Positions 9,001-62,114 of a DNA stretch of 64,000 nucleotides are shown piece after piece; the stretch's first letter is position 1; every line of letters starts with the position of its first letter. Made by a program: the position numbers and the translations under genes. Below the pieces are notes generated by a model, which did not search any database, was not told the origin of the DNA, and worked only from the letters and a program-made list of their open reading frames with translations. Source of the DNA: Apostichopus japonicus (taxonomy: Eukaryota; Echinodermata; Holothuroidea; Aspidochirotida; Stichopodidae); contig NC_092577.1 of assembly GCF_037975245.1 (NCBI RefSeq), positions 37,068,898 through 37,132,897 on the forward strand, written 5' to 3'.

Positions 9001-12000
9001 AGTGATAATGAAACTTGGTCACAACGTTCCTCGGGATAGGAGTTACGAGGGTTGTTCGGAAAATTGAGGTCAAATGTCATTTAGGGGGTCATCGGGGATC
9101 ATTCTTTTAATATTTTCAAATATCTCAATCTCCTCAAGATTTTGATGGATCATATTCAAAGTTGAACTGATGATTGTTGGATTGTGTATGAATAAGGTGA
9201 TGCCTAATAATTTTTGGTCAAAAGTTAATTAATTACAATTAATCCCCATTGTTTATAAAAATCTGAGCCTTCACCTTTTGCTAAAGCTCCTTTAATTTGT
9301 CTCCCAGTTTCTGCAGTGTTTGTTTACATTTGTGGTTAAGCTCTGCAGAGGCTGTTAGTGGAATTAAAGCAGGACTGGGAGTTGTTATTAACTGTTGAAC
9401 TGTAAGCGTGAGAGCCTTACAGCCAATCAGCACTTGCCGATTCTTAGAAGTCTTTGAGCCTGAGGTATGTAGGCAGCCAGCCAAAATTTTGGCAAGGAGT
9501 GCTTCAGGTCTGCTCAGGTAGAGGGGAGAAAGTTTAATAGGGGAGGTCAGTGGTATTGTTTGAGAGAGTGGGTAAAATAGGAATTAAAGGGGGAAAATAG
9601 GAATTATAGCCAGTGGTGTGGCCAGGATTCTGCTAACGGAGGGAGGGGGGGGGGGGTTATCCCTCATGGGCCCAAAATTGGTGGAATCTGAAAAATGGCC
9701 TGAAATTTGGTGGGCTATAAATTTTTGTGGGCCCTACATATTTAAGCTCGAAAAGGTATGAGCTTCTGCACCATTGGTGCTCTAGTCTTAAAGTAATGAT
9801 ACATCTCTTCTCCTTCCCCACATTCTCCCTTTTTCTTCTCTCTCCCTATTTCTCCCCTTCTCCATCTCCCCTCCCCCATCCCTTTCTTACTTTGGTCGGT
9901 TCAGATTTTCGGGGTTTACACAATCCTAACGTGTACACATCTTCAGTTTATTGTAGCAATGAACTGTTAACTGTCAATGAGAATTATGTTACTTAATTGC
10001 ACCACAGACTAGATCAACAAATTGTGCCAGTTGAGTGTGCCCTGAAGGTCTTCAAGACCACCCTGAATGAATTCAAGAACAGACAGAAGTACATCAAGGA
10101 TGACTACCGATTCAAGGACAGGTTCTCCAAGCAAAACCCAAGACGGACAATCAGAATGTGGGCTGAAAAGGAAATGCATAATTTGAACAGGTGAGAAACC
10201 TGCATCTCATTGATAATATGATTACTATGACTACAGTCTATGATAGTATGAAATGGAAATATGCATAATCTGAACAGGTGAGAAACCTGCATCTTATTGG
10301 TAATAATGGTTACTATTACTACAGTCTATGATACTGTAGTATGAAGTGGAAAAAAGCAAGGTTAACGTGCTGTTACACTAAGAATGAAATGTATTTTATT
10401 GTGCTATTAGGTAATTGTTTCATTCCCATTACTGTCTACCTGAAAATGTTGTTATTAATCTTTCACCAAAACTTTCTTTCGCCCGATTTATCCCAACGGT
10501 CTCACAATCTATCAGTAATATGGTTAGTATTGTGTAACTGTTGACACTAATTATTAAGTACATGATCCAGTTTGATGAAACTAAGAAAACCCTCATGTTC
10601 CTCCATGACAGGAATTCGTAAAATAAAGCATATTTTAGGACCATTTCTTCTAAGAAAAACACATGGTCAATATGAAAAGGTTAGCCAAGGTAAATGTTCA
10701 TAGAAAGGTTTCTTGGAGTGAGTTTGGTTAAACTTCAGAAGATTTTACTCAAAGTGATTTGAATTGTTGTGACTGTTTCACTCCTCCTTCAAATGTTTTC
10801 TTCATCAAATGTTTATGAAACTCTGCTTTTCCTTGCAAAGTTGAAAGAGAATTGTCAGATTAAGGGCTGAGAATGAAATGTGTATTAAAATTGACCTCAC
10901 AATGAGAATTGAATTAATCTTTCAGAATGAGGGAAGCTGGTATTCGCACACCAGATGTAATTCTTCTGAAGAAACACATTCTGGTGATGACTTTCATCGG
11001 TGAAAACCAAAAGGCTGCACCTAAGTTGAAGGATGTACCATTGTCCACTGCTGACAAACAAATTGCTTATGAGCAATGTCTGGAGGTAATTATGGAGAAA
11101 TGCTTTTCACCAAGTTTTTTTTTTTTTTTTGAGTTTAAGAAAAATAAAGAGAAGGTATTATTTGTATGTGAAATTAGATAAAAATTACATAACATCTATA
11201 GATTCACTTTGCTTTTCACTCACGAAACTATTGTGCTGTTTGGTACAAGTATTTATTCTCTCATAAAGTTATGCAGCAAATGGCTGGTACTTAGCCTTAA
11301 TCCCTTGGTGACAACTGTGGTGTGGAGTGTTAGCTCAGTGGTTAACGCCGGTGGCTTCCAATCATAAGGTCCCAGTTCGAGTCACTCCAAGATTAATGTA
11401 TGTTGTCCAGTTACAGGGTTGTTGACAATTCATAATCATGGACGTTAAATATGAATCTAAGAGACTGACTTCGGTCAGCTTGCGGTTTGATAAGCCACTG
11501 AGGCTTCTTCGGGAGTTCCTGCTTGCAGTAGGTTCTAAAATACATACATACAACTTTAGCCCCTTTTCTTATATGCAAAGGTGGCTTGTCCCTTGTACAT
11601 ATGCTTTGAAGGTGTTGACAATTAGCCAACATTTTGTAAGAGAATGTTTCAGAGAATCAAGCTTTTGTTCCGACACCAGGGCACAAAACTAATGTGGCAT
11701 TTTGAGCTTTAACTAACTTGTCAATTGGGTTGAATTAATGATGAATATTAATGACCTCCTTCCACAGATGATGGAACGTTTATATCAAGTCTGTAACCTT
11801 GTTCATGCTGACCTGAGCGAGTACAATATGCTCTGGCACCAGGGTCAGGTATGGTTTATTGACGTCAGCCAATCAGTGGAGCCAAACCATCCACATGGAC
11901 TGGAATTCCTGTTGAGAGATTGTACCAATGTCAGCACTGTGAGTGTAACTAATGTAAATCTATTAGCTATCTATTATGTCAGTCGAAGTATAGTGATACA

Positions 12001-13518
12001 AAGATTATATGGCCAATAAACTGCAAGATGGCAACTATATGTATGGTAGCATATGGTAACTTTGTGTGTCCCTCAAATTTCCATATATCTATCTATATAT
12101 ATTTGTTGCATGTTCTATGACAAATGAATAATAAAATATTATAGATCAACACACCAGAAAATTCCACATCTCTACCAGTTTTGTAGTATTAGGATTGATC
12201 AGGGGAAAGTATGAATCAAACCTTGGACCTTTGAGTCTGTAGTAAAATTTTATATATATATATTCATATTCATATATATTTGGCTGAAGAAAGCTGAACA
12301 GTAAACGGACAGCTTCTGATATGTGCATTGTGTCATCCGTCGTTATGTTGTTGAGTTTCACTTTCCATTTTACACAAGATTCTGCATTTGCTGAGTTTGA
12401 AATCAAATTGTAAGCATTATTTTGTACAATATTTAAATATAATTGCTTTTCATGTTAGTTAACATTTGCAGAATATCCTGGTAGGATCCCAACTCCAGAC
12501 CCCCTCAACCTTTACTTATATACCTACAAAGGCTATTGCAGTAGATTATAGCAGTCTGTTAGCAGTTGTTTCTCTCTTAGTCACAATGTCAACAATTTAA
12601 AGCACTTGCTAATACAACATTAACTGTTTATGCTGCTAACTGTAAAATCTTGAGGTTTGTTGGAACTGCTTCGGAGATTTTCAATAACCTGATACTTGTC
12701 ATTTTGTTATTTTAGCTGTATTATTTATTTTATATTAAATCACATTGAATTATCAGTTTCCCAGCAAACTCTGATAAATTGACAAAATTTGATTGGATTT
12801 TCCATTGATGATGTTTCCACTCTGTCACGTTTTCCTTTCCTTTTGCAGTTCTTCTCAAACATTGGAGTTCATGGAGTTTTAAAGCCTCATGAATTATTCA
12901 ACAGAGTAACAAAATTGGATTTGAAACCTGGAGACCACCAAGAATTTTTGGCACAGGTCAGCATCGTCTTTGATTATTTCCCTTTAAAGAAACTGTTGAA
13001 TTTATTTGCCAATGTCTGGCAAATTTTCACTCATTCATTAATCTGAGACCCCACAAAGAGTTCATCATCAAACTGTTGTTCTTTGAAGTGTGAAGTTTTT
13101 CTATTGTTTCCATACCTTAATTTCTATGTTATAGACAATGCTATCAGGTGAGGTATTTGCATTTTTCTAAGCATTCTGCTCGAATCATCCATTCACGACC
13201 GTATATTTGGACAATGCTATGAGGATGTGGTATTTAAATTTTTCGAAGCATTGTGCTTGAACCACCCATTCATGACCTTATGAACCATTCATGACCTTAT
13301 GACCTCATGAACCATTCATGACCTCACATTTTCTTTTCACGCAGATCGAATCTCTTCAGAAGTTTGCTGATGATGAGAAGCAAGGAAAGGATGTAGACAA
13401 TTTTGCTTTTGACTATTTCTTTGAACAGACAAGAGCAGAACAAGAAGTGAACGAAAGGTCTGCAAGAAAGAAGCAATCAGCAGACCAAACAGAGCGGGAA
13501 CATTTAGAAGGGGATTGA
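3077..13518 (+). CDS. RIOK3: Serine/threonine-protein kinase RIO3, 11 coding exons
   Basis: Exons: 3077-3255, 3715-3875, 4658-4747, 5836-5963, 6296-6439, 8100-8227, 10008-10190, 10926-11085, 11768-11938, 12849-12956, 13345-13518. All joins are GT-AG and keep frame, giving 541 aa (human RIOK3 is 519). The N-terminal part is low in conservation but retains the block [20 protein letters not shown]. The RIO kinase domain has the glycine loop ISTGKEA (about 262-268), the ATP-binding lysine in [16 protein letters not shown] (Lys 290), the catalytic loop HADLSEYN (404-411) and the metal-binding IDVSQ (about 422-426). RIOK3 acts on late pre-40S particles and also has signalling roles in vertebrates (family knowledge). 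The start was chosen because it aligns with the vertebrate N terminus. Intron 5 holds two minisatellites; the exon 7 donor and the stop region are locally duplicated. Confidence 0.96.
3555..3620 (-). ncRNA. Degenerate hammerhead-ribozyme-like motif, diverged copy
   Basis: On the minus strand the order is AGCCTCTTAAGAAGATCC, loop, a broken stem partner (CTATC in place of GGATC), GAAACGTCAGG. This is a mutated copy of the motif at 25380-25443 and 54687-54745 and is followed by the same AACTTACTTTTACAC tail. Stem II is broken here, so activity is unlikely. Confidence 0.4.
4826..5402 (+). repeat. Tandem repeat, about 4 units of ~150 bp in RIOK3 intron 3
   Basis: Each unit starts with TTGTAAACACGATATCTCAA and continues through a CACATTGAGTACAAGAAGCC block to GGTCATTTGGGGTNACCA. 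Units drift by about 10-20 percent. Same family as at 1-400. Confidence 0.85.
6590..7165 (+). repeat. 32-bp minisatellite, about 18 units, RIOK3 intron 5
   Basis: The unit contains GAGTACAGGTAACTATGGCA and GAATACTAATAT; the spacing between successive GAATAC words is 32 bases. Every unit carries CAG/GTAACT on the sense strand, one mismatch from the metazoan 5' splice-site consensus. Confidence 0.95.
7166..8010 (+). repeat. Imperfect 45-48 bp G-rich minisatellite, RIOK3 intron 5
   Basis: Units alternate the words GGTTATGGTAGGTGGG, TATGGTAAGCGGACATAG and TGTGGTGAGC or GTTAACG. At least eight units carry GGTAAGTGG, a strong 5' splice-site match on the sense strand. The opposite strand happens to be open for about 276 codons because the repeats lack stops; this is not a gene. 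A foreign insert at about 7250-7375 interrupts the array. Confidence 0.9.
7255..7375 (+). mobile_element. SINE/LINE-type 3' tail inside the minisatellite
   Basis: The segment ends ACAGCACTTCAAGATTTTTG, GAGGCGCTTTATAAGTA and then (TTA)n. A GCGCTTTATAA-(TTA)n ending is typical of many animal non-LTR elements and their SINEs. It splits the G-rich array, so it inserted after the array had formed. Confidence 0.5.
8578..9240 (+). repeat. Dispersed repeat beginning with a palindromic hairpin
   Basis: At 8586-8613 there is a nearly perfect palindrome, AGCTCATACC-AGCATGCT-GGTGTGAGCT. It is followed by a (TATCACTC)n stretch and diverged blocks of the type GAAACTTGGACACAAGGA and GGGGTCAAAGGTCA. This arrangement is common in interspersed repeats of marine invertebrates. 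Lies in RIOK3 intron 6. Confidence 0.6.
10170..10345 (+). repeat. 87-bp tandem duplication of the RIOK3 exon 7 donor
   Basis: The exon end ATAATTTGAACAG with donor GTGAGAAACCTGCATC (donor at 10191) recurs 87 bases downstream as ATAATCTGAACAG plus the same donor (10278). Flanking words ACTACAGTCTATGAT also recur. Use of the second donor would place an immediate in-frame TGA after the exon, so the upstream donor is the coding one. Confidence 0.9.
11322..11555 (+). mobile_element. tRNA-derived SINE, near full length
   Basis: The head has TGTTAGCTCAGTGGTTAACG (A box) and GGTCCCAGTTCGAGTCACTC (B box). The body includes ATGGACGTTAAAT, GACTGACTTCGGTCAGCTTG and GGGAGTTCCTGCTTGCAGTA, and the tail is a short CATA run. 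Located in RIOK3 intron 8. Confidence 0.85.
13130..13335 (+). repeat. Local duplications just before RIOK3 exon 11
   Basis: The words GACAATGCTAT, GGTATTT and TTCNAAGCATT recur once about 75 bases apart, then ACCATTCATGACCT recurs several times up to the acceptor CACGCAG at 13344. Confidence 0.7.
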
Positions 13519-13587
13519 TTATGTATCCCATCATGCATCACTGTATTTAGAAGGGGATTGATTATGTATCCCATCATGCATCAAATG
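13502..13587 (+). repeat. 43-bp tandem duplication over the RIOK3 stop codon
   Basis: ATTTAGAAGGGGATTGATTA with its downstream 20 bases occurs at 13502 and again at 13545. The first copy codes for the last residues and carries the TGA; the second is untranslated. Confidence 0.9.
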
Positions 13588-13762
13588 AATCAAGTGCTGG
13601 TTCCTTTCTGGTTACAGGTACTCAGGCCTGTCTCTTGAAGAAGAAGGCACAGACAATGCCCCTCTGAAATGTTAGGAATTAAGTGGTTACTAACCAGCTT
13701 TCAGACGACTACATGATCAGCATCTGTAAATTACGTAGTAAACCCCATTCATAAATTCTGGT

Positions 13763-13768
13763 AATAAA
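13763..13768 (+). terminator. Polyadenylation signal candidate for RIOK3
   Basis: AATAAA lies about 245 bases after the RIOK3 stop. Other candidates further downstream are possible. Confidence 0.45.
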
Positions 13769-16428: not shown

Positions 16429-19400
16429 CTATGCGATCTCGCCGAGATAAATCTGCTTATCACTGGACCCTGATACAACTGCAGGTGAAACAATGGAACA
16501 GAATTAATTACATCACAGGTACTTCAAGAAACGAAAAGAACAAGAAAAGTATCCATGGACTGTTCTTACACATGTTTAGAAACAATTCCGGCTCAGTACT
16601 GTAAACAGACTAAATATGTAAAAATATTTGTGATTATTTTCATGCTGGTTATTCATTTCTTTACAGAGAAATAGTTTGACTGTACTTACTAATGGGAGTA
16701 ATGGATTCCGTTGGGTGTAAACTGTGTTACAATTATTGTACTGGGAGCGTCCTGGTTTGACTGTACTTACTAATGGGTTCCGTTGTGTGTATACTGTGTT
16801 ACATTTATTGTACTGGGAGCGTCCTGGTTGGACTGTACTTACTAATGGGTTCTGTTGGGTGTAAACTGTGTTTCATTTATTGTACTGGGAGAGTCCTGGT
16901 TTGACTGTACTTACAAATGGGTTCCGTTGGGTGTAAACTGTGTTACATTTATTGTACTGGGAGAGTCCTGGTTTGACTATATTTACTAATGGGTTCCGTT
17001 GGGTGTAAACTGTGTTACATTTATTGTGTTGGGAGCGTCCTGGTTTGACTGTACTTACTAATGGGTTCCGTTGGGTGTAAACTGTGTAACATTTATTGTA
17101 CTGGGAGCGTCCTGGTTGGACTACTTACTAATTGGTTCCGTTGGGTGTAAACTGTGTTACATTATTGTACTGGGAGCGTCCTGGTTGGACTGTACTTACT
17201 AATGGGTTCCGTTGGGTGTAAACTGTGTTACATTTATTGTACTGGGAGCGTCCTGGTTTGACTGTACTTACTAATGGGTTCCGTAGGGTGTAAACTGTGT
17301 TAAATGATTGTACTTGGAGCGTCCTGGTTGGACTGTACTTACTAATGGGTTCCGTTGGGTGTAAACTGTGTTACATTTATTGTACTGGGAGAGTCCTGGT
17401 TTGACTGTACTTACAAATGGGTTCCGTTGGGTGTAAACTGTGTTACATTTATTGTGTTGGGAGCGTCCTGGTTTGACTGTACTTACTAATGGGTTCCGTT
17501 GGGTGTAAACTGTGTTACATTTGTTGTACTGGGAGAGTCCTGGTTTGACTATATTTTTTAATGGGTTCCGTTGGGTGTAAACTGTGTTACATTTATTGTA
17601 CTGGCAGCATCCTGATTTGACTGTATTTACTAATGGGTTCCGTTGGGTGTAAACTGTGTTACAATTATTGTACTGGGAGCGTCCTGGTTGGACTGTACTT
17701 ACTAATGGGTTCCGTTGGGTGTAAACTGTGTTACATTTATTGTACTGGGAGAGTCCTGGTTTGACTGTACTTACTAATGGGTTCCGTTGGGTGTAAACTG
17801 TGTTACATTTATCGTACAGGGAGAGTCCTGGTTTGACTGTATTTACTAATGGGTTCCGTTGTGTGTAAACTGTGTTACATTTATTGTACTGGGAGCATCC
17901 TGGTTGGACTGTACTTACTAATGGGTTCCGTTGGGTGTAAACTGTGTTACATTTATCGTACAGGGAGAGTCCTGGTTTGACTGTATTTACTAATGGGTTC
18001 CGTTGTGTGTAAACTGTGTTACATTTATTGTACTGGGAGCATCCTGGTTGGACTGTACTTACTAATGGGTTCCGTTGGGTGTAAACTGTGTTACATTTAT
18101 CGTACAGGGAGAGTCCTGGTTTGACTGTATTTACTAATGGGTTCCGTTGTGTGTAAACTGTGTTACATTTATTGTACTGGGAGCATCCTGGTTGGACTGT
18201 ACTTACTAATGGGTTCCGTTGGGTGTAAACTGTGTTACATTTATTGTGTTGGGAGTGTCCTGGTTTGACTGTACTTACTAATGGGTTCCGTTGGGTGTAA
18301 ACTGTGTTACATTTGTTGTACTGGGAGAGTCCTGGTTTGACTATATTTTTTAATGGGTTCCGTTGGGTGTAAACTGTGTTACATTTATTGTACTGGCAGC
18401 ATCCTGATTTGACTGTATTTACTAATGGGTTCCGTTGGGTGTAAACTGTGTTACATTTATTGTGTTGGGAGCATCTTGGTTTGACTGTACTTACTTATGG
18501 GTTCCGTTGGGTGGAAATCAACGTCATTGACTGACCCAGAGTGGCCAGGTAGTTTGTACAAGAGTCTTCTTGAAGTGGTATCCCAAACATACACAAACCT
18601 ATCTGCGGATCCAGCAGACACTTTACTGCCGTCTGGAGACCAGGCACATCTTAATAAATTCTGAAAGATAAATAAATGACTTAATTAATAAATCATAAAC
18701 TAAATGAGTGACACACCAAATGACACAGAAAGACCAATGGTAAAATCCTTCAGCAACTGTCCAAGATACACTAACATTGCTATTATACTTGTAATCAAAC
18801 AAGGACTAACATTGCTATTGTACTTGTAATCAAACAAGGACTAACATTGCTATTATATTTGTAATCAAACAAGGACTAACATTGCTATTATACTTGTAAT
18901 CAAACAAGGACTAACATTGCTATTATACTTGTAATCAAACAAGGACTAACATTGCTATTATACTTGTAATCAAACAAGGACTAACATTGCTATTATACTT
19001 GTAATCAAACAAGGACTAACATTGCTATTATACTTGTAATCAAACAAGGACTAACATTGCTATTATACTTGTAATCAAACAAGGACTAACATTGCTATTA
19101 TACTTGGAATGAAACAAGGACTAACATTGCTATAATACTTGTAATCAAACAAGGACTAACATTGCTATTATACTTGTAATCAAACAAGGACTAACATTGC
19201 TATTATACTTGTAATCAAACAAGGACTAACATTGCTATTATACTTGTAATCAAACAAGGACTAACATTGCTATTATACTTGTAATCAAACAAGGACTAAC
19301 ATTGCTATTATACTTGTAATCAAACAAGGACTAACATTGCTATTATACTTGGAATGAAACAAGGACTAACATTGCTATAATACTTGTAATCAAACAAGGA

Positions 19401-22400
19401 CTAACATTGCTATTATACTTGTAATCAAACAAGGACTAACATTGCTATTATACTTGTAATCAAACAAGGACTAACATTGCTATTATACTTGTAATCAAAC
19501 AAGGACTAACATTGCTATTATACTTGTAATCAAACAAGGACTAACATTGCTATAATACTTGTAATCAAACAAGGACTAACATTGCTATTATACTTGTAAT
19601 CAAACAAGGACTAACATTGCTATTATACTTGGAATGAAACAAGGACTAACATTGCTATTATACTTGTTATGAAACAAGGACTAACGTTGCTATTATATTT
19701 GTAATTAAACAAGGACTAACATTGCTATTATACTTGTAATCAAACAAGGACTAACATTGCTATTATACTTGTAATGACACAAGGACTAACATTGTTATTA
19801 TACTTGTAATCAAACAAGGACTAACATTGTTATTACACTTGTAACAAACAAGGACTAACATTGCTATTATACTTGTAATCAAACAAGGACTAACATTGCT
19901 ATTATACTTGTAATCAAACAAGGACTAACATTGCTATTATACTTGTAATCAAACAAGGACTAACATTGCTATTATACTTGTAATCAAACAAGGACTAACA
20001 TTGCTATGATACTTGTAATCAAACAAGGACTAACATTGCTATTATACTTGTAATCAAACAAGGACTAACATTGCTATGATACTTGTAATCAAACAAGGAC
20101 TAACATTGCTATTATACTTGTAATCAAACAAGGACTAACATTGCTATTATGCTTGTAATCAAACAAGGACTAACATTGCTATTATACTTGTAATCAAACA
20201 AGGACTAACATTGCTATTATACTTGTAATCAAACAAGGACTAACATTGCTATTATACTTGTAATGAAACAAGGACTAACATTGCTATAATACTCAGCGAC
20301 GTAGCCAGGAATTTGAAAGGGGGGAGCACTTTTTGCATTTGATATGGGGGAGGGGTCTAAGGGGAGGGGATAATCAAACAAGGACTAAGTCTACGGGGCA
20401 CCAAAAGGACACACAGTTATTGTTGTTCCTTTGAAATGACAGTTTGACAGAAATAAGGCAGTTTGGTAAGATTGTACACAATGTACAGTATTTATCATAT
20501 TATTATGCGATCTGGATATTTACCTTCTCAAAGTTATGTGTATGACCTTGAATCAACTTTACACATCTCTCAGCCGGAGCAAATGGTCTGATGTCCCATA
20601 TACGCACTGTATAAGAACAAATGTTTCTTTTGATGAAAGAGTGAACAAACTTATGGGAAACATTTTGTTAATTTTGCTGAAATTCCAACGAAAGAATGAA
20701 AGAGATTATGGGATTTACGTGTGATTACAGTGATTACTAAGAGCATGAGAGGCTTGCCTGAAAAGAAAATGAGAAGGAATGTGTTTTCTCTCCATGAATT
20801 TCAAGATTTCTTTATCTGTTGTCAGAGAATATTTGCAAGCTACAAGATTCAAGGCGTCATAACCAGAACAAGCTACCACCTAAACGAGCACTGGCTGATA
20901 ACAGCAAATAAATATATGAACTGGGCAAACTGGTTGTCCCTGGACAATCAGGTCTAATGCAACTGGGCAAACTGGTTGTCCCTGGACAATCAGGTCTAAT
21001 GCAACTGGGCAAACTGGTTGTCCCTGGACAATCAGATCTAATGCAACTGGGCAAACTGGTTGTCCCTGGACAATCAGGTCTAATGCAACTGAGCAAACTG
21101 GTTGTCCCTGGACAATCAGGTCTAATGCAACTGGGCAAACTGGTTGTCCCTGGACAATCAGGTCTAATGCAACTGGGCAAACTGGTTGTCCCTGGACAAT
21201 CAGGTCTAATGCAACTGGGCAAACTGGTTGTCCCTGGACAATCAGGTCTAATGCAACTGGGCAAACTGGTTGTCCCTGGACAATCAGGTCTAATGCAACT
21301 GGGCAAACTGGTTGTCCCTGGACAATCAGGTCTAATGCAACTGGGCAAACTGGTTGTCCCTGGACAATTAGGTCTTACTTTCTGGTTATAATCTAAACAG
21401 CAAATTCCATATAGAATCTCACCTGTGTTATCCATAGAATTTGACATAACGTATGAGCCATCAGGACTAAGAGTGAGACCTGTTATGGAATCCATGTGAC
21501 CTGTCATCTTATACAGAACATCATTCTTTCTCATGTCCCATATCTACATAGACAAATAAACAGACAGACAGATAGATGAAAACGATTATGATAGACCTAT
21601 ATGCAGCGATGGTATGCTACAAGAAAACAATGGTACTTTCAAACTTGCTAAAAACCCACTAAAATATATCAATTTACATTCTTTTACATTTATCCAATAT
21701 TCTTCCCAACTTTCATAAACTTTATTAACTGAATCAATATGCAAATATTTATGAATATATTAGAATACCAATCTATGACATCCAACATCATATCACCTTG
21801 GCAAACTTTTCATACATTGTAAAAATCTCATTTAAGAATGTGAACATCCTGATTAGCAATGAGACCTTGATTCATGACCCTCTTATTTTCAAAAGCAAAG
21901 TGGTACAAGCCACCTCGACTGATAGCTGCAGCTCTTAATATCCTGTCACACATAGACTATACAGCTGAGAGAGTGATCAAAAGCACCTTGATTTATGAAC
22001 CTCTAATGTTCACAGGGTCATTATCAACAACAAAAAAAGAAAGGAAAATGGTGCAGAAAAGCCATCTGGACTGATAGCTGCAGCTCTTAACAGCCTGCAA
22101 AACATAGACTTTATGTTTACAGCTGATATATTTAATTTGGACTGATAGCTGCAGCTCTTACCAGCCTCAAACATAGACTTTATGTTTACAGCTGATATAT
22201 TTAATCTGGACTGATAGCTGCAGCTCTTACCTGCCTGTCAAGCATAGACTTTATGTTTATGTCCAAATATGGACCATATTATTAGAGTCGTTATTTATTC
22301 TGTTGAGAAGGGGAATCTGGTTATATTCCTTTGGTCATGAGAAATGAACGAACGTGGCAGAGACAAAATATGAATAAAATAGCCACTCACTTTAATGGTG

Positions 22401-40700: not shown

Positions 40701-41597
40701 GGAATGTGCTCCAATGCAGTGATGAAATCATTCACTCGATCCACTGTTTAGAATGTACTCCAATGCAGTGATTACATGGTTCACTCGGTCCACTGTTTCA
40801 AATGCACACATAATCTGAAAATCACTGAAATAAAAGAAAACATTTCAAACTTTTACCATACAAGTCTTGTAGTTTGAAACATAAAGATGCTTAATAATTA
40901 CAAGCAGTCTTGTGTTTCTTTTAAGATAAGATCTATCAGTTTCTTATTCTTCTTATCTTCAGTTTCAGAGGAGGTCAGACAGAGAGGACTTCAGGCTTGG
41001 TCATCAATGATGGAGTCCATTACAAAGCATGCAACTTCTCAGCCTAGCAAAGTACTAGAATGTGACCTGAGCTATTCTAAGAAAGGTGCAAGTAATGTTG
41101 AAGAAAGTCAGTCAAAGCCATCAAGAAAAGGTTCACGGAAAGGTGCGAGAAGAAACTTTACAAATGTCAAAAAGTGGAATAATTGCCAGGATATGAATAG
41201 GAGTAAATTGCATCCAAATCTGGAACTGGCCAAGAATGTGCCAGTGGCATTACCAAAGGAAAGAGTGGGTTGTTGGAACATTGTGAATCAATCAGAAACA
41301 GAAGAAATGTCGGTAATGAGCAAACCATCTGGGATGAGCAGGTCTGTAGGTGATAGTGGTGCATCAAAGACAGTAAGTAATAACAGAGGGAAATTATGCA
41401 AGGTCAACAAGGTCATAGAGAAGCAGAGAATTCTATTCGTGGAACATCAGTTTGGTTTAGGGGTGGACATCATATACCCTTCACTCATGAAGGTTGAATC
41501 TGAGAAATGTGAGCAAGAAAGTATTTCACTGGTCAATAAGCATCAGGCAGCAGGAAAAGTTGTTGGACTTAAGCAGATCCGCAGTCAAATTGGTTAG
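34729..41597 (+). CDS. Unnamed multi-exon protein with exonuclease-like N-terminal part
   Basis: Exons that join in frame: 34729-34842, 35166-35299, 35635-35731, 36324-36485, 36990-37213, 39300-39564, 40076-40312, 40963-41597; at least 622 aa, with the 5' end missing. Protein-level signals: VLLSHGGDSVDFLFFFRSL followed by IHFTDPVPLL and YLTLGSLLNDWF has the order of the ExoII and later segments of DEDDh exonucleases, but the final His-x4-Asp is not present, so the fold, if real, looks inactive. A CATCGG turn occurs near the end of exon 6 of this list; exon 7 is acidic (QEWEEEEKGSIEDVEERFEA), and the last exon is basic and low-complexity (SRKGSRKGARRN). I do not recognise the family. A 76-bp array after 37213 repeats the donor of the fifth exon. 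The stop is at 41595-41597, although a weak donor just before it leaves a further exon possible. Confidence 0.8.
37198..38722 (+). repeat. 76-bp minisatellite of exon end plus donor, 20 units
   Basis: The exon ends AATGGATCAAGACCA at 37213 with donor GTAAGTCATTTAG. The same words recur every 76 bases (donors at 37214, 37290, 37366 and so on to 38659). One unit has GTAGGT instead of GTAAGT, one has a single-base insertion. The units are otherwise nearly identical, pointing to recent expansion. Only the first donor keeps the reading frame; a TAA follows within the first unit. Confidence 0.98.
40555..40800 (+). repeat. Five ~49-bp repeats in the unnamed gene's last intron
   Basis: The unit reads GTTTAGAATGTGCTCCAATG followed by CAGTGATGANNTNATTCACTCGGTCCACT, with small differences. 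Confidence 0.9.
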
Positions 41598-46177: not shown

Positions 46178-46185
46178 GCCACTAG

Positions 46186-46497
46186 CAGGTGCGTAGCCAT
46201 GAATTTGCCAAGGGGGGGGCGAAAATGTAGAAAAATGATCAGAGCCGTAGATATGGCATCGCAGACTATCTAAGCGTAGCGCCACCATGGTTGGCGCGAA
46301 ACGTACAAGAAAATTTTGGCTAAAAATGCCTCCCAGATCGCTGGAAATGGCACTTCCCAGGCCTTGTAAGTTGCATCTTGGCATTTTCTCTTTTGAAATT
46401 ACTAGCGATATCCTAAAAACATGAATTAAAAAAATATATATATGCTCAAGGGGGGGGCGGCTGCCCTCTTCGCCCCCCCTCCCTTTGCTAGCGCCTG
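46186..46497. mobile_element. hAT-like non-autonomous element, 312 bp
   Basis: Ends are CAGGTGCGTAGCCATGAATT and, inverted, CAGGCGCTAGCAAAGGGAGG; both continue into G-rich runs. An exact 8-bp duplication GCCACTAG flanks it (46178-46185 and 46498-46505). CAG-type ends with an 8-bp duplication fit the hAT superfamily. No transposase. Confidence 0.75.
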
Positions 46498-46505
46498 GCC
46501 ACTAG

Positions 46506-51500: not shown

Positions 51501-54500
51501 GATCATATTTCAACTTCAGGGTCATTAGTGGGGAGTATGGTACAGTGTTGTACAGTATACTGTACATACCAAAACAGTTTTGCACCAAAACTTTGCATCT
51601 TGAATCATTTGTGGTCTAACAGAGCAAGAATTGATGTTCTGACTATTTGGTCTGGTAACCAGTATTAGGTCTATAGAGTTTTCTTTGTTGGATATACTAG
51701 TTTCATAGATGGACATTACGTGGCATTACTGTGGACATTTTGGTATATTTGAATGGGATGGATCATATTTCAACTTCAGGGTCAATAGTGGGGAGTATGA
51801 TACAGTGTTGTACAGTATACATACCAAAACAGTTTTGCACCAAAACTTTGCATCTTGAATCATTTGTGGTCTAAAAAAGCTAGAATTGATGTTATGAGTA
51901 CTTGATGTATGTGTAGAGTAGATTAATACTTTATGCATTCCATTTTTTATGTGGAATGATCTCACAAGTACAGTCACTGCTCTTTTCCGTATCCCAGAAA
52001 GAAGGAAATATGGCATGAAATTACCAATGACATTGTTCTGGCATATCCAAATTAATTTTTTTATGTAGAAATCAGCTTGTTATGGTATATTCAGGAATAA
52101 AAATATGAGTTTTCATAGTCAATTTGTATATGGACAAATTGTCCCGTACGTCACATGTCCCGTACGTCACAGGACAATTTTCATTTGTGTAACCACTGTA
52201 CTGGAATGGCTTCATATTTTTTTCTAATATGTTACAGCTTAGCCCTTGGAAGTTTAGGCTATTCACTAGTTATAACAGCTTGATCACTGCCCTCCTAATT
52301 TCAGAGCGGTTTCAGCTTTGTTCTTTAGTAAAAAAAACACAAAATTCTCTGGTCCCGTACGTCACACTGCACATTAATTAAGATGGGACCTAATTAAAGC
52401 AAGTGTAGGAAATCTTCATGAGTTTGTAATAAAGTAGCAGCAATAACAAATATAAAAAACTGAAAAAGTTTCTGGAAAATAGATTTTATGTAACTTTTAG
52501 ACAAATTTAAGTCTCTGAAATGTCCCGTACGTCACAGTTCAAATAGCTTGGACCTGCCCACCTGCTGTGTGTGTATATGATGTTTATGATCCATATATAT
52601 TCCTGTACCATATTTGGCAAGAGAAAACATTGCTCTTTTCTTCTAATCTGCATGATGTAATTTGTGCTAGATTGTGAAGGAATTCATCAAATGTAGGCCT
52701 ATATTACTCGCATGTGCAACAACAGTGTATAATATGCCTACAGTATAAATCAGTCGCTATTAGCTCTCCATAGAGGTAAAGTATGTTTTCGTAACACATT
52801 TTACATGCAATCTCTCATGGTTGGTTTGCAACGAAAGCAAGGAAATTCTAAAATGAAATATCCAAATTCCTAGCTAACTACTGTAGTATCAAAAACATCT
52901 TGATAGCTTACTTTAAGATATCTTTTCAGTCAATCTCTGAAGAGAAAGACAAATCTAGGTTCCGTAGATGCAGCATCGGATGAAGAAGATGAAGATGGCT
53001 TACCAGAAGATGATCCTGAGGATTTCTCCGAAGGGGCCGTTGTAAGTCCATCAAGATACTCCCTTTTCCCCCATTTTTTTGGTAATTACAGGTAGCTACA
53101 AGCAGTTGAATTTGATCAAATAATACATCAAAAGATTAAAGACAAGAAAACAGAAGTATGAATTTGTTTATGTCTTTCTTAAAAGTGAATCACTAAAGTT
53201 CTATTTAAGTTGGTTTAGATCTAAATAGAATAAATGTTGATATCATGTCACACAATTAAGAGCCATGTTGAGTTATCCAATGTGTCATTCTGTATTTTCC
53301 CATATATGCAAACGACCTACATATTAGTTTGTGCCTTCTACATTGTGTGGCAGGCAAATCCTATATTACTGCTACCTCCAAATTAGGACAATTTACTGAA
53401 TAATGTACTTTCATATCCTAAGCATATTTCAGAGCATTTGTACTACAATATGAGTATCATTTTTCTATCAGATAAAGATTAGGAACTGTTCACACTGTCA
53501 GTACAGGTGTTTTGAAGCATGATATGCCAGGACAGTACAGAGTAGTATAAGCATTAGAATCAGATAAAGGTTAGGAACTGTTCATACTGTCAGTACAAGT
53601 GCTTTGAAGCATGAAATGAGAGGACAGTATGGAGTGGTATTGGCATTAGAAAATTGTCCCATCCGGCTGCTGCTACTGTAAAACTAGTTACTTTCTGAAG
53701 AAATAATCAGCTAAATTTCTGTTGCAATTGTTATCTTTTTTTGCCTGCTAGGAAATTGACAAAGAGGATGAAGCAGCCCTGGAACAGTTTATGAATAAAG
53801 ATGCTCCTCCAAGGCAGACATTAGCAGATATAATCATGGAAAGATTAACAGAAAAGAGAACAGAAGTTGCTTCACAAATGTCTGGTAGGGTTTATATTCA
53901 TGAGAGGTAGAAGAAGCTGTGTATTGTGTGTAGAGTTCTTTATCTACAAGACAGCATTTCAAGAATATTCAAACCACCTTAACTGATGAATCTAGTTTTG
54001 AATTTTGATAAAAAAAAAAAACATTTGTGCTGTTCCATGTGTTATCATTCATTCTAAAAGAGATTCAGGTTTAGCAAATAATGTTCAGTAGATGGGATCA
54101 TTAATGAGGTCACAACAAATGTTATTTCTTGTTTGGCAGGATATCTCACAAGTTTTATCATTCTGTTTGTAGTAAAAGACCACAATGGGCAAGGTGTTGT
54201 CTGACTTGTTTACAAGAAAATATGCAAATGTTGATGTTTTTTAGTAGTTCAAGTAATATTTCTGGTCACATTGATGCATGGAATAATATCACAGCATTCC
54301 TTTCATTTAAATTAAGATTCAAGTTTATATCTGGATTGGAATACTCTCAGTTATAGTATTTTGCCCTTGTTTCTTTGACTAGAGAGTGGTGTATCACTAC
54401 CAGAAGTTGATGAAAGGGTTGTTCAGGTTTACAAAGGGGTGGCGCAGCTTCTTTCAAAGTACAGGAGTGGCAAATTACCAAAGGCCTTCAAAGTTCTACC

Positions 54501-57500
54501 ATCTCTAAGATCATGGGAACAGGTAAGCACTCACAAAACAAGTTAGTTAGCATTTTTTCTTGTATATATTCTGAGAGCTTGTAATGAGGCCTTGTTTAAG
54601 TTAGCTAGAATTATATCCTAATAAAAATATAATAAAACTGTTAGCAAACTGCTTATCCACTAGAGAGCCTGTGTAATAGAATGTTTAGCCTTTGAAGAAG
54701 ATCCTGCTAGGATCGAAACGTCAGGCCAACTTACTTTTACACAGAATTATATCCTGTTTGAATTGAGCAGAGAATTACACAATTTTTCATCTTTTTATAA
54801 ATTTATATAGATCCATTTCATTTAAATATCTGTCCAACTTGTGAGAATTTAGGTTTCCACATTACAGTAAATCATGTGCAGTTCTGATATATATTACTTT
54901 TTGAATGACATAGTGACATTGTTTTGAAAGAACTGAAAGACTTTCATGACATAAAACCCATTCTTACCATCAGCCCTGCCCTTATTAAATGATCCATAAT
55001 ACTGAATTGAAACTTGCTTTGTATTAAAGAAAGGATCAGGAGGGACACTTAAGTCCCCATCAAGGACCCAATAGGAGAGAAAAAAACTGAAGCCACAAAC
55101 ACTCAGACCCGATAACAATGATTAAAGTGCTTGTCCAAAGCATTCTTTAACCCATTCACACTATTTGCAAGTACTACTTTCTCAGGCAAACCGTTCCACT
55201 CATTTACAACCCTATTAGAAAACATTATGCTGAATATTAATCCTACTTTGTGACTTGTGGAGTTTGAAACAATGACCTCTGGTACAACTACTATGAGCAA
55301 ACATGAAAAGTCAGTGAAGAATAAATTGTCAGAACCATACACAATCTTGAAAACCTGAATCAAGTCACCAGGCAACCTCCTAAGCTCCAGTGTGGTGAGA
55401 TTCTACAGCTGTAACCTCATATAATAATGAACACCCTCTAAGGAAATATCTTCGCATTTACTTTTACTATAGATTTTGTACATCACTCAACCAGACAGAT
55501 GGACTGCTGCTGCAGTATTCCAAGCTACCAGGTTATTTGCCAGCAACCTAAATGCAAAAATGGCACAAAGGTTTGAACTTAACATCAGTTAAACTGTTTT
55601 CATAAACTCGGTTTATCTCCTGTCTTTATTTCATCTTCTATGTATTGTCTCCTTTGTTCATTGTACGTTAATATCTGAGAGGATGTATTGTTCACATAAT
55701 CATTCATATTCATGTTGTTTATTGTATGTTAATATCTGAGAGCATGTATTGTTCACATAGTCATTCATATGCATGTTGTTCATTGTATGTTAATATCTGA
55801 CAGGATGTATTGTTCACATTGTGATTCATATGCATGTTGTCTATTGTATGTTAATATCTGAGAGCATGAGGCGGAGTGTCTAGCCTAGTGGTTAACGCCG
55901 GCGTCTCCCAGTCATGAGATCCCCGGTTCGATTCCCCGCCGACAGCAATGTGTGTCGTCTGGCAAGGGTGTTGTTCAATAACAACTTCCCGACATGGACG
56001 TTAAATGGATGTGTGCCGAGAGATTGGCTTCGGTCAGCTTGCGAGTCTATAAGCCTCCATGGCTTCTTTCGCGAGTTCCTGCTTGCGGGAAGATCACATA
56101 TACATACATACATACATACATGTATTGTTCACATTGTTATTCATATGCATGTTGTTCATCGTATGTTAATATCTGAGAGCATGTATTGTTCACATTGTTA
56201 TTCATATGCATGTTGTTCATCGTATGATAATATCTGAGAGGATGTATTGTTCACATTGTGATTCATATTCATGTTGTTTATTGTATGTTAATATCTGAGA
56301 GGATGTATTGTTCACATTGTGATTCATATTCATGGTGTTTATTGTATGTAAATATATGAGAGGATGTATTGTTCACATTGTGATTAATATGTATGTTGTT
56401 TATTGTATGTTAATATCTGAGAGGATGTATTGTTCACATAGTCATTCATATGCATGTTGTTCATTGTATGTCAATATCTGAGAGCATGTATTGTTCACAT
56501 TGTTATTCATATGCATGCTGTTTATTGTATGTTAATATCTGAGAGGATGTATTGTTCACATAGTCATTCATATTCATGTTGTTTATTGTATGTTAATATC
56601 TGAGAGGATGTATTGTTCACATAGTCATTCATATTCATGTTGTTCATTTTATGTCAATATCTGAGAGCATGTATTGTTCACATTGTTATTCATATGCATG
56701 CTGTTCATTGTATGTTAATATCTGACAGTATGTATTTGTTATCAATTGTGATTCATATTCACGTTGTTTATTGTATGTTAATATCTGAGAGGATGTATTG
56801 TTCACATTGTGATTCATATGCATGTTGTTTATTGTATGTTAATATCTGACAGGATGTATTGTTCACATTGTGATTCATATGCATGTTGTTTATTGTATGT
56901 TAATATCTGAGAGGATGTATTGTTCACATTGTGATTCATATTCATGTTGTTTATTGTATGTTAATATCTGAGAGGATGTATTGTTCACATTGTGATTCAT
57001 ATTCATGTTGTTTATTGTATGTAAATATATGAGAGGATGTATTGTTCACATTGTGATTAATATGCATGTTGTTTATTGTATGTTAATATCTGAGAGGATG
57101 TATTGTTCACATAGTCATTCATATGCATGTTGTTCATTGTATGTCAATATCTGAGAGCATGTATTGTTCACATTGTTATTCATATGCATGCTGTTTATTG
57201 TATGTTAATATCTGAGAGGATGTATTGTTCACATAGTCATTCATATTCATGTTGTTTATTGTATGTTAATATCTGAGAGGATGTATTGTTCACATAGTCA
57301 TTCATATTCATGTTGTTCATTTTATGTCAATATCTGAGAGCATGTATTGTTCACATTGTTATTCATATGCATGCTGTTCATTGTATGTTAATATCTGACA
57401 GTATGTATTTGTTATCAATTGTCATTCATATTCACGTTGTTTATTGTATGTTAATATCTGAGAGGATGTATTGTTCACATTGTGATTCATATGCATGTTG

Positions 57501-60500
57501 TTTATTGTATGTTAATATCTGACAGGATGTATTGTTCACATTGTGATTAATATGCATGTTGTTTATTGTATGTTAATATCTGAGAGGATGTATTGTTCAC
57601 ATTGTGATTCATATTCATGTTGTTTATTGTATGTTAATATCTAAGAGGATGTATTGTTCACATTGTGATTCATATTCATGTTGTTTATTGTATGTTAATA
57701 TCTGAGAGGATGTATTTGTTACATTATGATTCATATATGCATATTGTTCATTGTATGTTAATATCTGAGAGGATGTATTGTTCACATTGTGATTCATATT
57801 CATGTTGTTTATTGTATGTTAATATCTAAGAGGATGTATTGTTCACATTGTGATTCATATTCATGTTGTTTATTGTATGTTAATATCTGAGAGGATGTAT
57901 TTGTTACATTATGATTCATATATGCATATTGTTCATTGTAGAATTGCTTTGTGGTACTAATTGAAGGTTTCTTTTCTTTCTTAGGTTTTACAATGTCGTA
58001 TTACTTCCAAGGATACGAGATGACATATGTGAATACCAGAGGTTAAATTATCATTTATATATGGTAAGTGTAACAGAGGTTAAATTATCATTTATATATG
58101 GTAAGTGTAACAGAGGTTAAATTATCATTTATATATGGTAAGTGTAACAGAGGTTAAATTATCATTTATATATGGTAAGTGTAACAGAGGTTAAATTATC
58201 ATTTATATATGGTAAGTGTAACAGAGAAGTGTGGGAGAGATAAGTTATTCAAAGCTTCATAACTAAGCCTTTGATGCTGCTTACACATATGTTATTGAAG
58301 CCAGTTTATTAGTGATTAATTGGAACATATATACATATATAGTCTGTTCAAATTATCTTTGGAGATCCGGCTTAAGGAATCACAATGACTTCGAGTTGGT
58401 AAGCATCATGCTTGATCTCTAGAGTAAGGCAAATATTTCACCAAAACAGAGCTAGTATTATTCGATACTGGTGACAAACGCCTACAGTGGAATTAAAACC
58501 TTCTTTGCTGGTTTTCAAACCTATGCATATACAATCAGCATCCATAGCCTAGTGGGAGGCCGGGGTTCGAATCCCGGTGGAGGCTAGAAGTTTTTTCACT
58601 GTTCTGGATTTTCCAGCTCACTACAATTTCAATTATATATATATATTGATATATATCTATGTTTATTTGAAAGTCCAATAAAGTTGGAAAAAAGTCACAT
58701 TTTCTTTACTTTGGTTTTCTCCATTTAGTCTCTGAAGAAGGCACTGTTCAAACCTGCTGCATTCTTTAAGGGTATTCTTTTACCTTTGTGTGAGGTAAGT
58801 GGATTAGGGTAGTGTCCTCATTATGCCTTTTATCCTGAATCACATTGATTTACCAGTGTGATATAAGCCTTAATGCATCATATTACATTTAGGTATTGTC
58901 AACAATGCCTGATTTCTACCTTTGCAGCAATTTATCTTAGTTTATTGGTAACTAATGGGAACATATCCTATTGTAAGTTGATCGTATGTTAAGCTGTACA
59001 GTCTGCATTTTAGATGTGTTAATTATGAAAGAAATCCAATAGATATCGTTCTGGGCTCATTTTGAAGAAAATGTTATGGTTGTTTAACTTGTTTTTCGGA
59101 CATATTTGGTTGTCCGAAGGATTTTTTTTGTTGTCCAATGAAAGCACCCAAAAATACTACTGTAGTTGCATGATATGGTATATTGCACTCATCCTGTGCA
59201 CAAAAGTTACTAAATATTTGCTCAGGGACAATTATGTTAGTTTATACGTACGTCCTGCGATTTTCCAACGCTTGGATTTTTAAGTGGCGCCAAGCGCCAT
59301 ACATATCTGCAATGCATAAACTTTGCCTTGTAGGTGAGTACCATAACGTTAGGCTGCGCAGGCCTAGTCCATCGGCCTGAGGCTTAAGTCTAGTACTCTT
59401 AGTGACTAGTCTTACCGAGATTGACTTTGTGGAAATTTTGGACAGAATTGTAGTGTATGGCATTGTTACGAAAGCAGGATTCTGCATCTGGGATGCAGTC
59501 TTTTAGCCAGTGGCGCAAAACCATCATATTGCTGCCATCCGGCAAACATTTGGAGGAAGCAAACCCCAAGAACACACTCACAGCTAGGCCTATAAAAAAC
59601 GTAACAAGCAAATTTTTGAATGAATATATTTCTTCCTTTTCAAAACACCACAACTTCTTGTTAAAAGAACCAAAATTCCAGTACTTTGCTCAGATGATTG
59701 AATTTGTTTGCAAACAAATAAATCATAACAATCAACTGCAAGTACAGAGTGAATACAGAGATTTTCATGGTAAAAATAGTCAATGGTGGTTTCCAAATTT
59801 CCTGTGATTCGATTGGCTAATAGCCATTACCATTGTTCACAAGCATTCTTGCATCTATATGCTCAATGAATGCAAAGGGTGTTGTTTAAATGCAACTAAT
59901 TGTAACTATGGTAACTAGTCTACGGCAAACTGTCCGCTTCAGGATTTGACAATAATTTTGTTGTTGTATACTAGTTACAGCTTTCATCATTTGATTTATT
60001 TGTTCACATTATATACATATCACTTTAGGCTTCCGTTTCATACAAGCCAATGTGTGTCTGGTGTTATTATAACTAAGTATTCTGCGTTCCTATCGAGGTA
60101 TTTTAAAGTGCATGTTTTCATGGAGGACTGGTGACGCAAGTTTTTCTGACTGACGCAAACATTGTTAAGACGTTTTAAGTTTAATAATCCTGGCAACAAT
60201 AAATGAATGCAGCAACATAAAAGAACATACGTATGCCCACATTTACAGTATATAACTGCATACACTTTGTACTCCAGCTAGCCTGTCATATGTGGGTGCA
60301 GCTGCCAGGGTCTGTAGTGTACAAAGTATACCATACTTTACGTAACCATTAGTGCTTATGTACAGTTTCCACATTCTGTCTTTACTAATAATGAAAGAGC
60401 TTACTGCATGTTAGGGATGCGAAGGGGTTATGGAACATTCCAAAATGTGATTTATATCTTACGTTGTTTCTAGTATGAATGGGGGCGATACCATCACTAT

Positions 60501-62114
60501 CACTACCACTTTTTCGGGGCTGATTTTGATTTGAAAGAATAGGGATTTTCTGAGCTTTGTTTGAGGTGTTAAACACTTACGACAAATGCTAGTCTTCTGT
60601 CGGACAACAATAAGCAATGTTTAAGGTTGTCCGACGTGCTTTTGGTCGTTCTCGGACAATCGAACGACTATTAAATTTGAGCCCTGCCGTTGCTGAAGTA
60701 TTGTAAGATAGATGCATTGTTGGATAATCAGTTTTTATAATGCCACAATGTGAGTTGAACATGATTGAGTTGGCCTTAAGACTGACATATTTTTCTGTAT
60801 TCTGTAGAATCATGAATTAAGAAGATACATATGATTTAAGTGAGACATTTGTTTTCAAAACGGAAAAGAAAGAATGCACCTTGCATATACCAAACTAGTT
60901 GCAAATATGTTAAAGATAATGAATTTGTGCATTTAGTGATTTTCACATTCCTGTGACTTGATTCTTTGCTCCTTTACAGTGCCCCGTCCTTCCATAGAAT
61001 GTTTTTATCACTTTGTGGCACTTTACTTACCCTTTTTGTTTACAGTCTGGTACATGCACTCTTCATGAGGCTCACCCCCCTCCTTTCCCTAGAATGTTTT
61101 TATCACTTTGTGGCACTTTACTTACCCTTTTTGTTTACAGTCTGGTACATGCACTCTTCGTGAGGCTATCATTGTCAGCAGCATCCTAACTAAGTGCTCC
61201 ATCCCTGTTCTGCATTCAAGTGCTGCTATCTTGAAAGTAGCCGAGATGGATTACACAGGAGCGAACAGCATCTTCTTGAGGACACTGCTGGAGAAGAAGT
61301 ACGCCCTCCCATACAGAGTGATTGATGCACTAGTGTATCATTTCCTACGGTGAGAATTCTTAATCCCCGCCCACGTCCTGGCAGCCTTTCATGGTCTCAC
61401 TTGATGAGATTATCCTAAACCCATGGCAACTAATCATATTAAAATAGGCAAAGTAAACCAAAGAAATTCTTGTCCTCTACTTCAATGCAAAAATAAAGCT
61501 GAATTTGATTCAGAGTGAAAATACCAAACAGTTGAAAACCTGGCATACAGAAAAGAGAGTTCATTTGGAAATGATTTGGGATACATATCTTACAGAAGTT
61601 CCTTTAATATGTCAAAGATTCACGAGGAGAGTAGGATCAGGTCTCAGACCCTTCAAATTATTCAGTTTCTTAATATTCATAACTGCTGATATGGCATTGA
61701 AGGTTGTGTATCTCAGTTTGTAGTATGTGTTTTCTGTTTTGACAAACTGAGGCTCCAATAAAGATGAACATTAGGTTTGAACCATCTTTTATATAACTTT
61801 TGTTGCTTTCAACTCTTTATTCTTTCCCATACTCTTATTTGTCCAGTACTTTTCTCGCTCAATATCTGCACATTTGATTTCTTTGATGTTTTCATTTAAA
61901 TAGGTTTGTGATGGACAAGAGAGAGTTACCTGTTCTCTGGCACCAGTCTTTGTTAACCTTTGTTCAGAGATACAAGGAAGACATTTCTAGCGAGCAAAAA
62001 CAGGCCCTGTTAGATCTCCTTAGGTCCCAGACACACCCCAGCATTACCCCTGAGATCAGGAGGGAGATCATAAACTCTAAATCAAGAGACTCTGAAGAAC
62101 CAATTGTGGGCTAG
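48592..62114 (+). CDS. BYSL: Bystin, 40S ribosome assembly factor, 10 exons
   Basis: Exons: 48592-48738, 49613-49698, 52930-53041, 53752-53884, 54383-54522, 55473-55570, 57985-58063, 58729-58794, 61141-61349, 61904-62114. Frames join at every GT-AG site to 426 aa (human 437). The basic N terminus (MGKSKKRQ) is followed by [15 protein letters not shown], an acidic stretch [16 protein letters not shown], and the conserved bystin domain: [92 protein letters not shown] and [19 protein letters not shown]. Bystin (Enp1 in yeast) is needed for 18S rRNA processing and 40S export in the nucleus (established). Intron 2 holds a 2.77-kb transposon-like element, intron 6 a 61-bp array; the exon 7 donor is repeated five times and the exon 9 acceptor twice. 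Confidence 0.97.
49081..49200 (+). pseudogene. LINE reverse transcriptase fragment (FADD motif)
   Basis: Plus-strand translation gives [20 protein letters not shown] and then DCHKLQDDI, the catalytic-aspartate region of a non-LTR reverse transcriptase. Only this short piece survives, in BYSL intron 1. Confidence 0.75.
49794..52559. mobile_element. 2.77-kb TIR element with GTGACGTACGGGACA motifs
   Basis: Perfect 18-bp inverted ends: GGGCAGGTCCAAGCTATT at 49794-49811 and its complement at 52542-52559. The 4-bp ACCT flanks both ends (49790-49793 and 52560-52563). Eight copies of GTGACGTACGGGACA sit near the ends: 49973, 50137 (inverted), 50307 and 50326 on the left; 52140, 52156, 52351 (one mismatch) and 52521 on the right, all inverted. 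The centre is a ~255-bp tandem repeat. No transposase frame. Superfamily not assigned. Inside BYSL intron 2. Confidence 0.85.
50760..51885. repeat. ~255-bp tandem repeat, about 4.4 units, inside the TIR element
   Basis: Unit landmarks: GTGGGGAGTATGRTACAGTG, CCAAAACAGTTTTGCACCAA, TTTGGTCTGGTAACCAGTAT and GGGATGGATCATATTTCAAC. Units differ by a few substitutions and by presence or absence of CTGTA in the ACAGTATACTGTACATA segment. Confidence 0.95.
53465..53660 (+). repeat. ~100-bp tandem duplication in BYSL intron 3
   Basis: AGATAAAGATTAGGAACTGTTC, CTGTCAGTACA and TTTGAAGCATGA recur about 97 bases apart. The right edge, GCATTAGAAAATTGTCCCA, resembles 29205-29230, so a dispersed element may underlie it. 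Confidence 0.8.
54687..54745 (+). ncRNA. Hammerhead-ribozyme-like motif, second copy
   Basis: AGCCTTTGAAGAAGATCC, TGCTA, GGATCGAAACGTCAGGCC and the AACTTACTTTTACACA tail are essentially identical to 25380-25443. Sense orientation in BYSL intron 5. Confidence 0.5.
54890..55440 (-). pseudogene. LINE 3' end (reverse transcriptase C terminus), degenerate
   Basis: The minus strand gives [17 protein letters not shown], then [20 protein letters not shown] and [13 protein letters not shown]. This is the characteristic C-terminal block of many CR1/L2-type LINE ORF2 proteins. The upstream catalytic region is missing. In BYSL intron 5. Confidence 0.8.
55660..57945. repeat. 61-bp minisatellite with higher-order structure, BYSL intron 6
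   Basis: Unit: ATTGTATGTTAATATCTGAG followed by AGGATGTATTGTTCACATTG and TGATTCATATNCATGTTGTTT. About 34 units, interrupted by a SINE at 55866-56110. A block of eleven units (about 673 bases) is repeated almost exactly, for example 56637-56849 against 57310-57522. The array stops about 40 bases before the exon 7 acceptor. Confidence 0.95.
55866..56115 (+). mobile_element. tRNA-derived SINE inside the 61-bp array
   Basis: The head has GTCTAGCCTAGTGGTTAACG and ATCCCCGGTTCGATTCCCCG; the body has ATGGACGTTAAAT, GATTGGCTTCGGTCAGCTTG and CGCGAGTTCCTGCTTGCGGG; the tail is (CATA)n. It inserted after the minisatellite existed. Its intact A and B boxes make it the best-preserved SINE here. Confidence 0.88.
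58037..58225 (+). repeat. 37-bp repeat of BYSL exon 7 end plus donor, 5 units
   Basis: AGGTTAAATTATCATTTATA with TATGGTAAGTGTAACAG occurs five times; donors GTAAGT begin at 58064, 58101, 58138, 58175 and 58212. The first copy overlaps the exon (RLNYHLYM). The period is not a multiple of three, so only the first donor keeps the bystin frame with exon 8. Confidence 0.97.
58540..58640 (+). mobile_element. SINE fragment with intact B box
   Basis: ATAGCCTAGTGG is followed at once by GGCCGGGGTTCGAATCCCGG, a perfect B box and T-arm, then GTTTTTTCACTGTTCTGG. The distance between the boxes is too short for a tRNA, so this is a deleted SINE head. Confidence 0.6.
59051..60686. mobile_element. Candidate 1.6-kb hAT-like element, BYSL intron 8
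   Basis: The left edge CTGGGCTCATTTTGAA and the inverted right edge CAGGGCTCAAATTTAA match at about 13 of 16 bases. Both sides carry several TTGTCCGA motifs in either orientation within 130 bases of the edge. No clean target duplication was found. A 116-codon frame (59457-59807, plus strand, beginning [14 protein letters not shown]) lies inside but has no recognised domain. Confidence 0.45.
60980..61170 (+). repeat. 95-bp tandem duplication of the BYSL exon 9 acceptor
   Basis: TAGAATGTTTTTATCACTTT through TTGTTTACAG and the exon start TCTGGTACATGCACTCTTC occurs twice; acceptors are before 61046 and 61141. The downstream copy continues into the real exon and keeps the conserved arginine codon CGT; the upstream copy has CAT. 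Use of the upstream acceptor would shift the frame (95 bases). Confidence 0.95.

Follow-up and report, generated by a model that had tools for sequence, protein, structure and literature searches.

This study analyzed a window of 64,000 nucleotides from the sea cucumber Apostichopus japonicus, in which six tandem duplications run across an exon edge, namely four splice donors, one splice acceptor, and one stop codon. We consider these repeats probable mirage-type minisatellites, that is, products of random tandem duplication from which the exon-breaking cases have been lost and the cases straddling a single junction survive. The class is already known, and the sea cucumber apparently adds a new host phylum to it. 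A second sample from the same genome revealed that boundary-spanning arrays recur; the counts give no support for strong recurrence beyond chance, and a two-fold enrichment at splice junctions is possible but unproven.

Gene models of RIOK3, SNRNP40, an unnamed gene, and BYSL were built by using solved-structure matches, tblastn, and splice signals, and they occupy the following positions in the window.

3054..13518, plus strand: RIOK3 gene, 11 exons modelled
16429..27350, minus strand: SNRNP40 gene, 9 exons
33695..41597, plus strand: unnamed conserved gene, 9 exons
48592..62114, plus strand: BYSL gene, 10 exons

The four models comprise 39 exons and 35 introns, the latter in agreement with the approximately 35 estimated in the preliminary description. 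Translation revealed that all are in frame and have no internal stops, and RIOK3 has one putative 5'UTR acceptor beyond the 35 introns. Over 95% of its length, the BYSL query was 97% identical to a bystin predicted for Apostichopus japonicus. The A. japonicus bystin record P0006 starts at sequence located at 49264 (window 48592-49299), and the likely true BYSL first exon (MGKSKKRQ...) lies at 48592 and matches P0007; judged by these positions, the database start of P0006 looks mis-annotated. For the unnamed gene, scoring of the 7,996 candidates with the most shared words identified five relatives, all of them uncharacterised echinoderm proteins (one sea cucumber, three sea stars, and one brittle star), the best being that of Holothuria leucospilota, and the four pieces of this gene that were scanned had no Pfam match. 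The frame of SNRNP40 exon 6 (20860-21543, minus strand) is open across its donor and a 42-bp intronic array, giving 228 residues in total; this read-through is probably due to chance because the array unit length is divisible by three.

Several further elements were noted by eye. SNRNP40 intron 1 contains degenerate telomere-like TTAGGG/CCCTAA runs at 26503-26811, inverted and in palindromic-looking sequence, and a related stretch lies at 33019-33066; the sequence resembles an element of the foldback or MITE type. A 61-bp array in BYSL intron 6 (55654-57940) is broken at about 55869-56119 by sequence resembling a tRNA-derived SINE, and an element resembling this insert occurs near 11320-11545. 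On the minus strand, 29669-30501 holds a remnant of a reverse-transcriptase-like frame with the motif YADDTAI, probably a retrotransposon.

All six duplications that the preliminary description had placed over exon edges were found at the named junctions, as follows.

10164..10358, plus strand: duplication at the donor of RIOK3 exon 7, a pair of copies spaced 85 to 87 bp and 84.5% similar
13502..13583, plus strand: RIOK3 stop-codon duplication, 39-bp exact repeat at 43-bp spacing
16699..18517, minus strand: donor array of SNRNP40 exon 8, 25 copies of 72 bp, the exon ending with base 18495
37199..38722, plus strand: donor array at exon 6 of the unnamed gene, 20 copies of 76 bp
58034..58226, plus strand: donor array of BYSL exon 7, 5 copies of 37 bp
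60982..61167, plus strand: duplication at the acceptor of BYSL exon 9, 2 copies of 95 bp

In the RIOK3 donor repeat, which has an ungapped core at 10174-10305, the true donor of exon 7 (CAG/GTGAGA, with a slash at the junction) lies between 10190 and 10191, and one decoy CAG/GTGAGA follows 87 nt downstream; the decoy is in frame, but a stop is met earlier. The RIOK3 stop repeat takes in the final coding codons together with TGA (13516-13518), and the first stop terminates the reading frame. The unit of the SNRNP40 array includes 23 nt of exon; its true donor is TAA/GTAAGT, and the 24 decoy copies, which retain GT in 22 cases, mostly read TTA/GTAAGT. The unnamed gene has its true donor CCA/GTAAGT between 37213 and 37214, followed by 19 decoys that all keep GT and that, in 18 cases, are identical to the true-donor motif. 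In BYSL exon 7, the true donor ATG/GTAAGT (between 58063 and 58064) is repeated with the same motif in four of four decoys, and the repeated exon piece codes for QRLNYHLYM. The true acceptor of BYSL exon 9 lies between 61140 and 61141, and a decoy acceptor ttacag is located upstream at 61040-61045.

Self-BLAST as a repeat finder missed several two-copy repeats, and an ungapped offset scan was therefore used; in a check on one first-order Markov resample, nothing passed the applied threshold. The diverged RIOK3 donor repeat had no row in Tandem Repeats Finder and was detected by two other scans. The resulting set comprised 32 tandem loci, or 27 if five weak ones are dropped, against 71 splice junctions, and exactly the six loci listed above touched exon bases. 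For the null distribution, every array was reduced to a single unit, which left 50,445 bases, and the units were randomly placed.

When units were placed over the whole window, the five observed splice overlaps compared with 2.44 to 2.80 expected (P 0.087 to 0.141), and when placement was confined to gene spans, they compared with 3.04 to 3.49 expected (P 0.17 to 0.26). Including start and stop codons raised the observed count to six against 2.70 to 3.08 expected (whole-window placement, P 0.043 to 0.079). These P values are to be read in light of the selection of the window for its striking look. The preliminary description had anticipated well under one such overlap by chance; approximately three (2.4 to 3.5) are expected against the five found, with P 0.09 to 0.26. 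That expectation was an underestimate because unit length counts: approximately 30 duplicated segments, each of tens of bases or more, are set among 71 junctions. None of the 32 loci was wholly exonic, against 2.4 to 2.9 expected under gene-span placement, and none in the window contained a whole exon. The earlier suggestion of selection against exon-invading arrays fits these results, and a lack of wholly exonic loci is what purifying selection predicts.

An independent sample of 200 kb (C2) was then obtained from another contig of the same genome, with the sampling plan fixed before the scan. The same scan identified 57 tandem loci. Nineteen resembled microsatellites, and two of the 57 straddled splice junctions of recognised genes. 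Both belong to one Ldh_2 gene, in which Pfam Ldh_2 matches were found in exons on both sides.

C2 offsets 108366-108706 and 112897-113339: Ldh_2 arrays L012-L013, one donor mirage and one acceptor mirage

The donor array has five copies of 67 bp. The acceptor array carries tacag/GTGG or tacag/ATGG at intervals of approximately 65 bp, and six copies are listed on the upstream side of the true site; its unit was taken as 65 bp, and the scan itself gave 130, twice the apparent unit.

Junctions in C2 were obtained from a gene finder that, under strict settings (-8 to -10), recovered 30 to 32 of 39 exons exactly on its training window. When each gene was left out in turn, it recovered 19 of the 39 exactly and touched 26, and the C2 junction list is therefore approximate. 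From 54 predicted exons, we counted 43 junctions (21 exons and one further edge), and only in Pfam-recognised genes (Ldh_2, DOMON, thioredoxin-like, and polyketide synthase); one thioredoxin-like exon was added with edges from its coding-score segment, and three edges were hand-corrected. Exons excluded before the count were retroelement-like or otherwise unlabelled, both large and small, and included two, at 93156-93186 and 174593-174682, that overlap an array and whose inclusion would raise the observed count. Also excluded were an array-overlapping low-complexity ORF at 171533 and two exons of a gene labelled WD40-like by eye, and a Glu-rich repeat at 46068-46210, possibly coding, was left out of the count. 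For these 43 approximate junctions, two overlaps were observed against 0.59 to 0.68 expected (P 0.116 to 0.149), a three-fold point estimate that comes from two cases only.

Pooling the window with C2 gave seven overlaps against 3.08 to 3.39 expected under whole-window placement (P 0.038 to 0.057) and against 3.63 to 4.08 under gene-span placement (P 0.076 to 0.119). The corresponding ratio of observed to expected has a point estimate of 1.7 to 2.3, which is not secure. The counts of the window (5 against 2.4 to 3.5) and of C2 (2 against 0.59 to 0.68) are compatible with random placement, whereas the pooled excess leaves room for a real two-fold bias.

We further examined where the seven splice arrays, five in the window and two in C2, begin and end relative to their exons. 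They affect five donors and two acceptors and have units of 37 to 95 bp. All seven have their exon-side edge within the exon, at 15 to 44 nt from the junction, and in none does it coincide with AG/GT. Exonic sequence makes up 0.20 to 0.81 of the unit (mean 0.43), a spread compatible with a uniform distribution (P = 0.28, with the Ldh_2 acceptor unit taken as 65 bp).

These edges bear on the proposal that splice junctions, or the transcription structures surrounding them, seed duplication through replication slippage or R-loops and thereby raise exon-edge arrays above chance. The pooled excess (7 against 3.08 to 4.08, with P between 0.038 and 0.119 according to the null chosen) and the predominance of donors (five of seven) are what such seeding would predict, but gene-span placement in the window gave a non-significant result (P 0.17 to 0.26), the window was chosen for its look, and both independent cases come from one gene in a sample that alone yields P 0.12 to 0.15. 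Moreover, no edge lies at a junction, and the exonic share fits random placement. Seeding at splice sites, which the preliminary description had offered as a cause, is thus unsupported, and we regard it as improbable. It is likewise doubtful that holothuroid tandem duplication is approximately two-fold biased to splice junctions, with mirages in a sizeable share of genes and, as the outcome, an extensive natural stock of duplicated splice sites; if this were true, the stock could let exon boundaries shift or new introns arise.

The decoy sites were compared with the true sites. In the four donor arrays besides SNRNP40, GT is present in 28 of the 28 decoys found. Altogether, 50 GT-keeping decoy donors were examined, most of which share the true donor motif, and use of a decoy would introduce a stop codon in 49 of them; the exception is the first BYSL decoy, which shifts the frame. 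In the SNRNP40 array, the sole array tested, the 24 decoy donors have a mean mismatch of 0.065 compared with 0.070 for the rest of the unit. Because the donor positions are as variable as the remainder, the SNRNP40 decoys look neutral, and no selection on decoy donors is visible in that array. RNA structure that might hide the decoys was also considered and rejected: four donor units were folded, and none was notably more stable than its shuffles (z -1.0 to +1.8). Reading frames are intact in the gene models that use the exon-proximal sites, and the three homologous bystins P0006, P0007, and P0008 are continuous across the BYSL donor and acceptor, although these are predicted proteins and their own genes may lack the arrays. 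From the reading frames and these proteins, we infer that the exon-proximal site is the one used.

The position of the partner splice site was informative regarding intron origin. Rogers, as cited in PMC3087553, is said to have proposed in 1989 that introns are gained by tandem duplication of AGGT-containing sequence, a model in which two copies of one exonic duplication supply both splice sites of an intron, and the present arrays share with that model a tandem duplication bearing splice-site sequence. They differ in that one edge of an existing intron is copied here. All five introns of the window that carry an array at one end have their opposite splice site beyond the repeats, and therefore the duplications did not make these introns; the suggestion that they are precursors of intron gain of this type does not fit.

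The arrays were then compared with systems described in the literature. The preliminary description had stated that no established class name fits the pattern; however, PMC3087553 and PMC3902484, which both trace the original report to Canestro et al. 2002, describe such a class in amphioxus genes under the name mirages, defined as minisatellite-like tandem duplications of exon-intron boundaries. The genes named there are Adh3 and the globins BflGb6 and BflGb9 (PMC3087553), to which PMC3902484 adds troponin C and PGBD5, and the mirages are reported to leave splicing undisturbed (PMC3087553). In both animals, the unit consists of an exon end or start and the adjoining intron (here in 5 of 32 window loci and 2 of 57 C2 loci), donor and acceptor edges are both affected (here five and two, respectively), and many but not all copies keep AG/GT (here 22 of 24 in SNRNP40 and 28 of 28 in the other four donor arrays). 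Units of about 10 to 160 bp are given for amphioxus in PMC3087553, a range that includes the 37 to 95 bp found here. For both, a normal gene product is inferred, here from reading frames and homologous proteins. The two differ in host, a cephalochordate there and an echinoderm here, where up to 25 copies occur. PMC2812944 describes, without the name mirage, human internal tandem repeats in segmental duplications that are likewise of minisatellite type and overlap exon-intron boundaries. Those repeats vary in copy number between recent paralogues and often lead to alternative transcripts, whereas the present arrays lie in conserved genes (for example RIOK3, SNRNP40, and BYSL) whose models show no effect on the product. 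Among the matches listed, the name mirage was applied only to amphioxus, and none described an echinoderm mirage; given the thin coverage of subscription journals, this is weak evidence of absence.

Two further explanations were weighed against this background. The arrays could be functional, with decoys that regulate splicing or are en route to new introns or exons, as might be suggested by the nearly intact state of up to 24 decoy copies and by the recruitment of mirages into new introns that PMC3087553 proposes for amphioxus globins. This explanation is very unlikely, considering that the decoy donors of SNRNP40, the sole array tested, are as variable as the remaining unit, that a stop codon results from 49 of 50 decoys, and that the far end of the intron is outside the array in all five affected introns. 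Inflation of copies or misjoining at repeats during assembly has a precedent, in that the supplement legend of PMC3087553 indicates that one mirage in the amphioxus genome draft was seemingly misassembled. Nevertheless, the copies in SNRNP40 and RIOK3 are mutually distinct (about 84 to 93% alike), which misassembly would not produce, and the same pattern was found in another contig; an assembly artefact is therefore extremely unlikely.

The origin as mirage-type minisatellites, which we favor, may be outlined as follows. In a minisatellite-rich genome, tandem duplications would arise at essentially random places, and some would then expand. Selection would remove those that lie within an exon or swallow one, whereas those straddling one splice junction or stop codon could persist because the copy nearest the exon body (the first donor, the last acceptor, or the first stop) would still yield a normal mRNA and protein. 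The remaining copies would pass into the intron or 3'UTR, where they would be free to multiply and leave rows of near-identical decoy splice sites. The exon-proximal site may win by exon definition, as the sole site beside both the full exon body and the partner site; each decoy would be accompanied by just 15 to 44 nt of exonic sequence. In most cases, the occasional mis-spliced product would run into a stop codon.

These findings suggest that mirages may follow simply from a high minisatellite load together with tolerance of junction duplications. Such arrays would also serve as natural experiments on how splice sites are chosen: for the unnamed gene, one donor would have to be selected among 20, with 18 of the 19 others identical in motif, and the preference for the exon-proximal site becomes directly testable. 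Gene annotators should expect false extra exons at such arrays.
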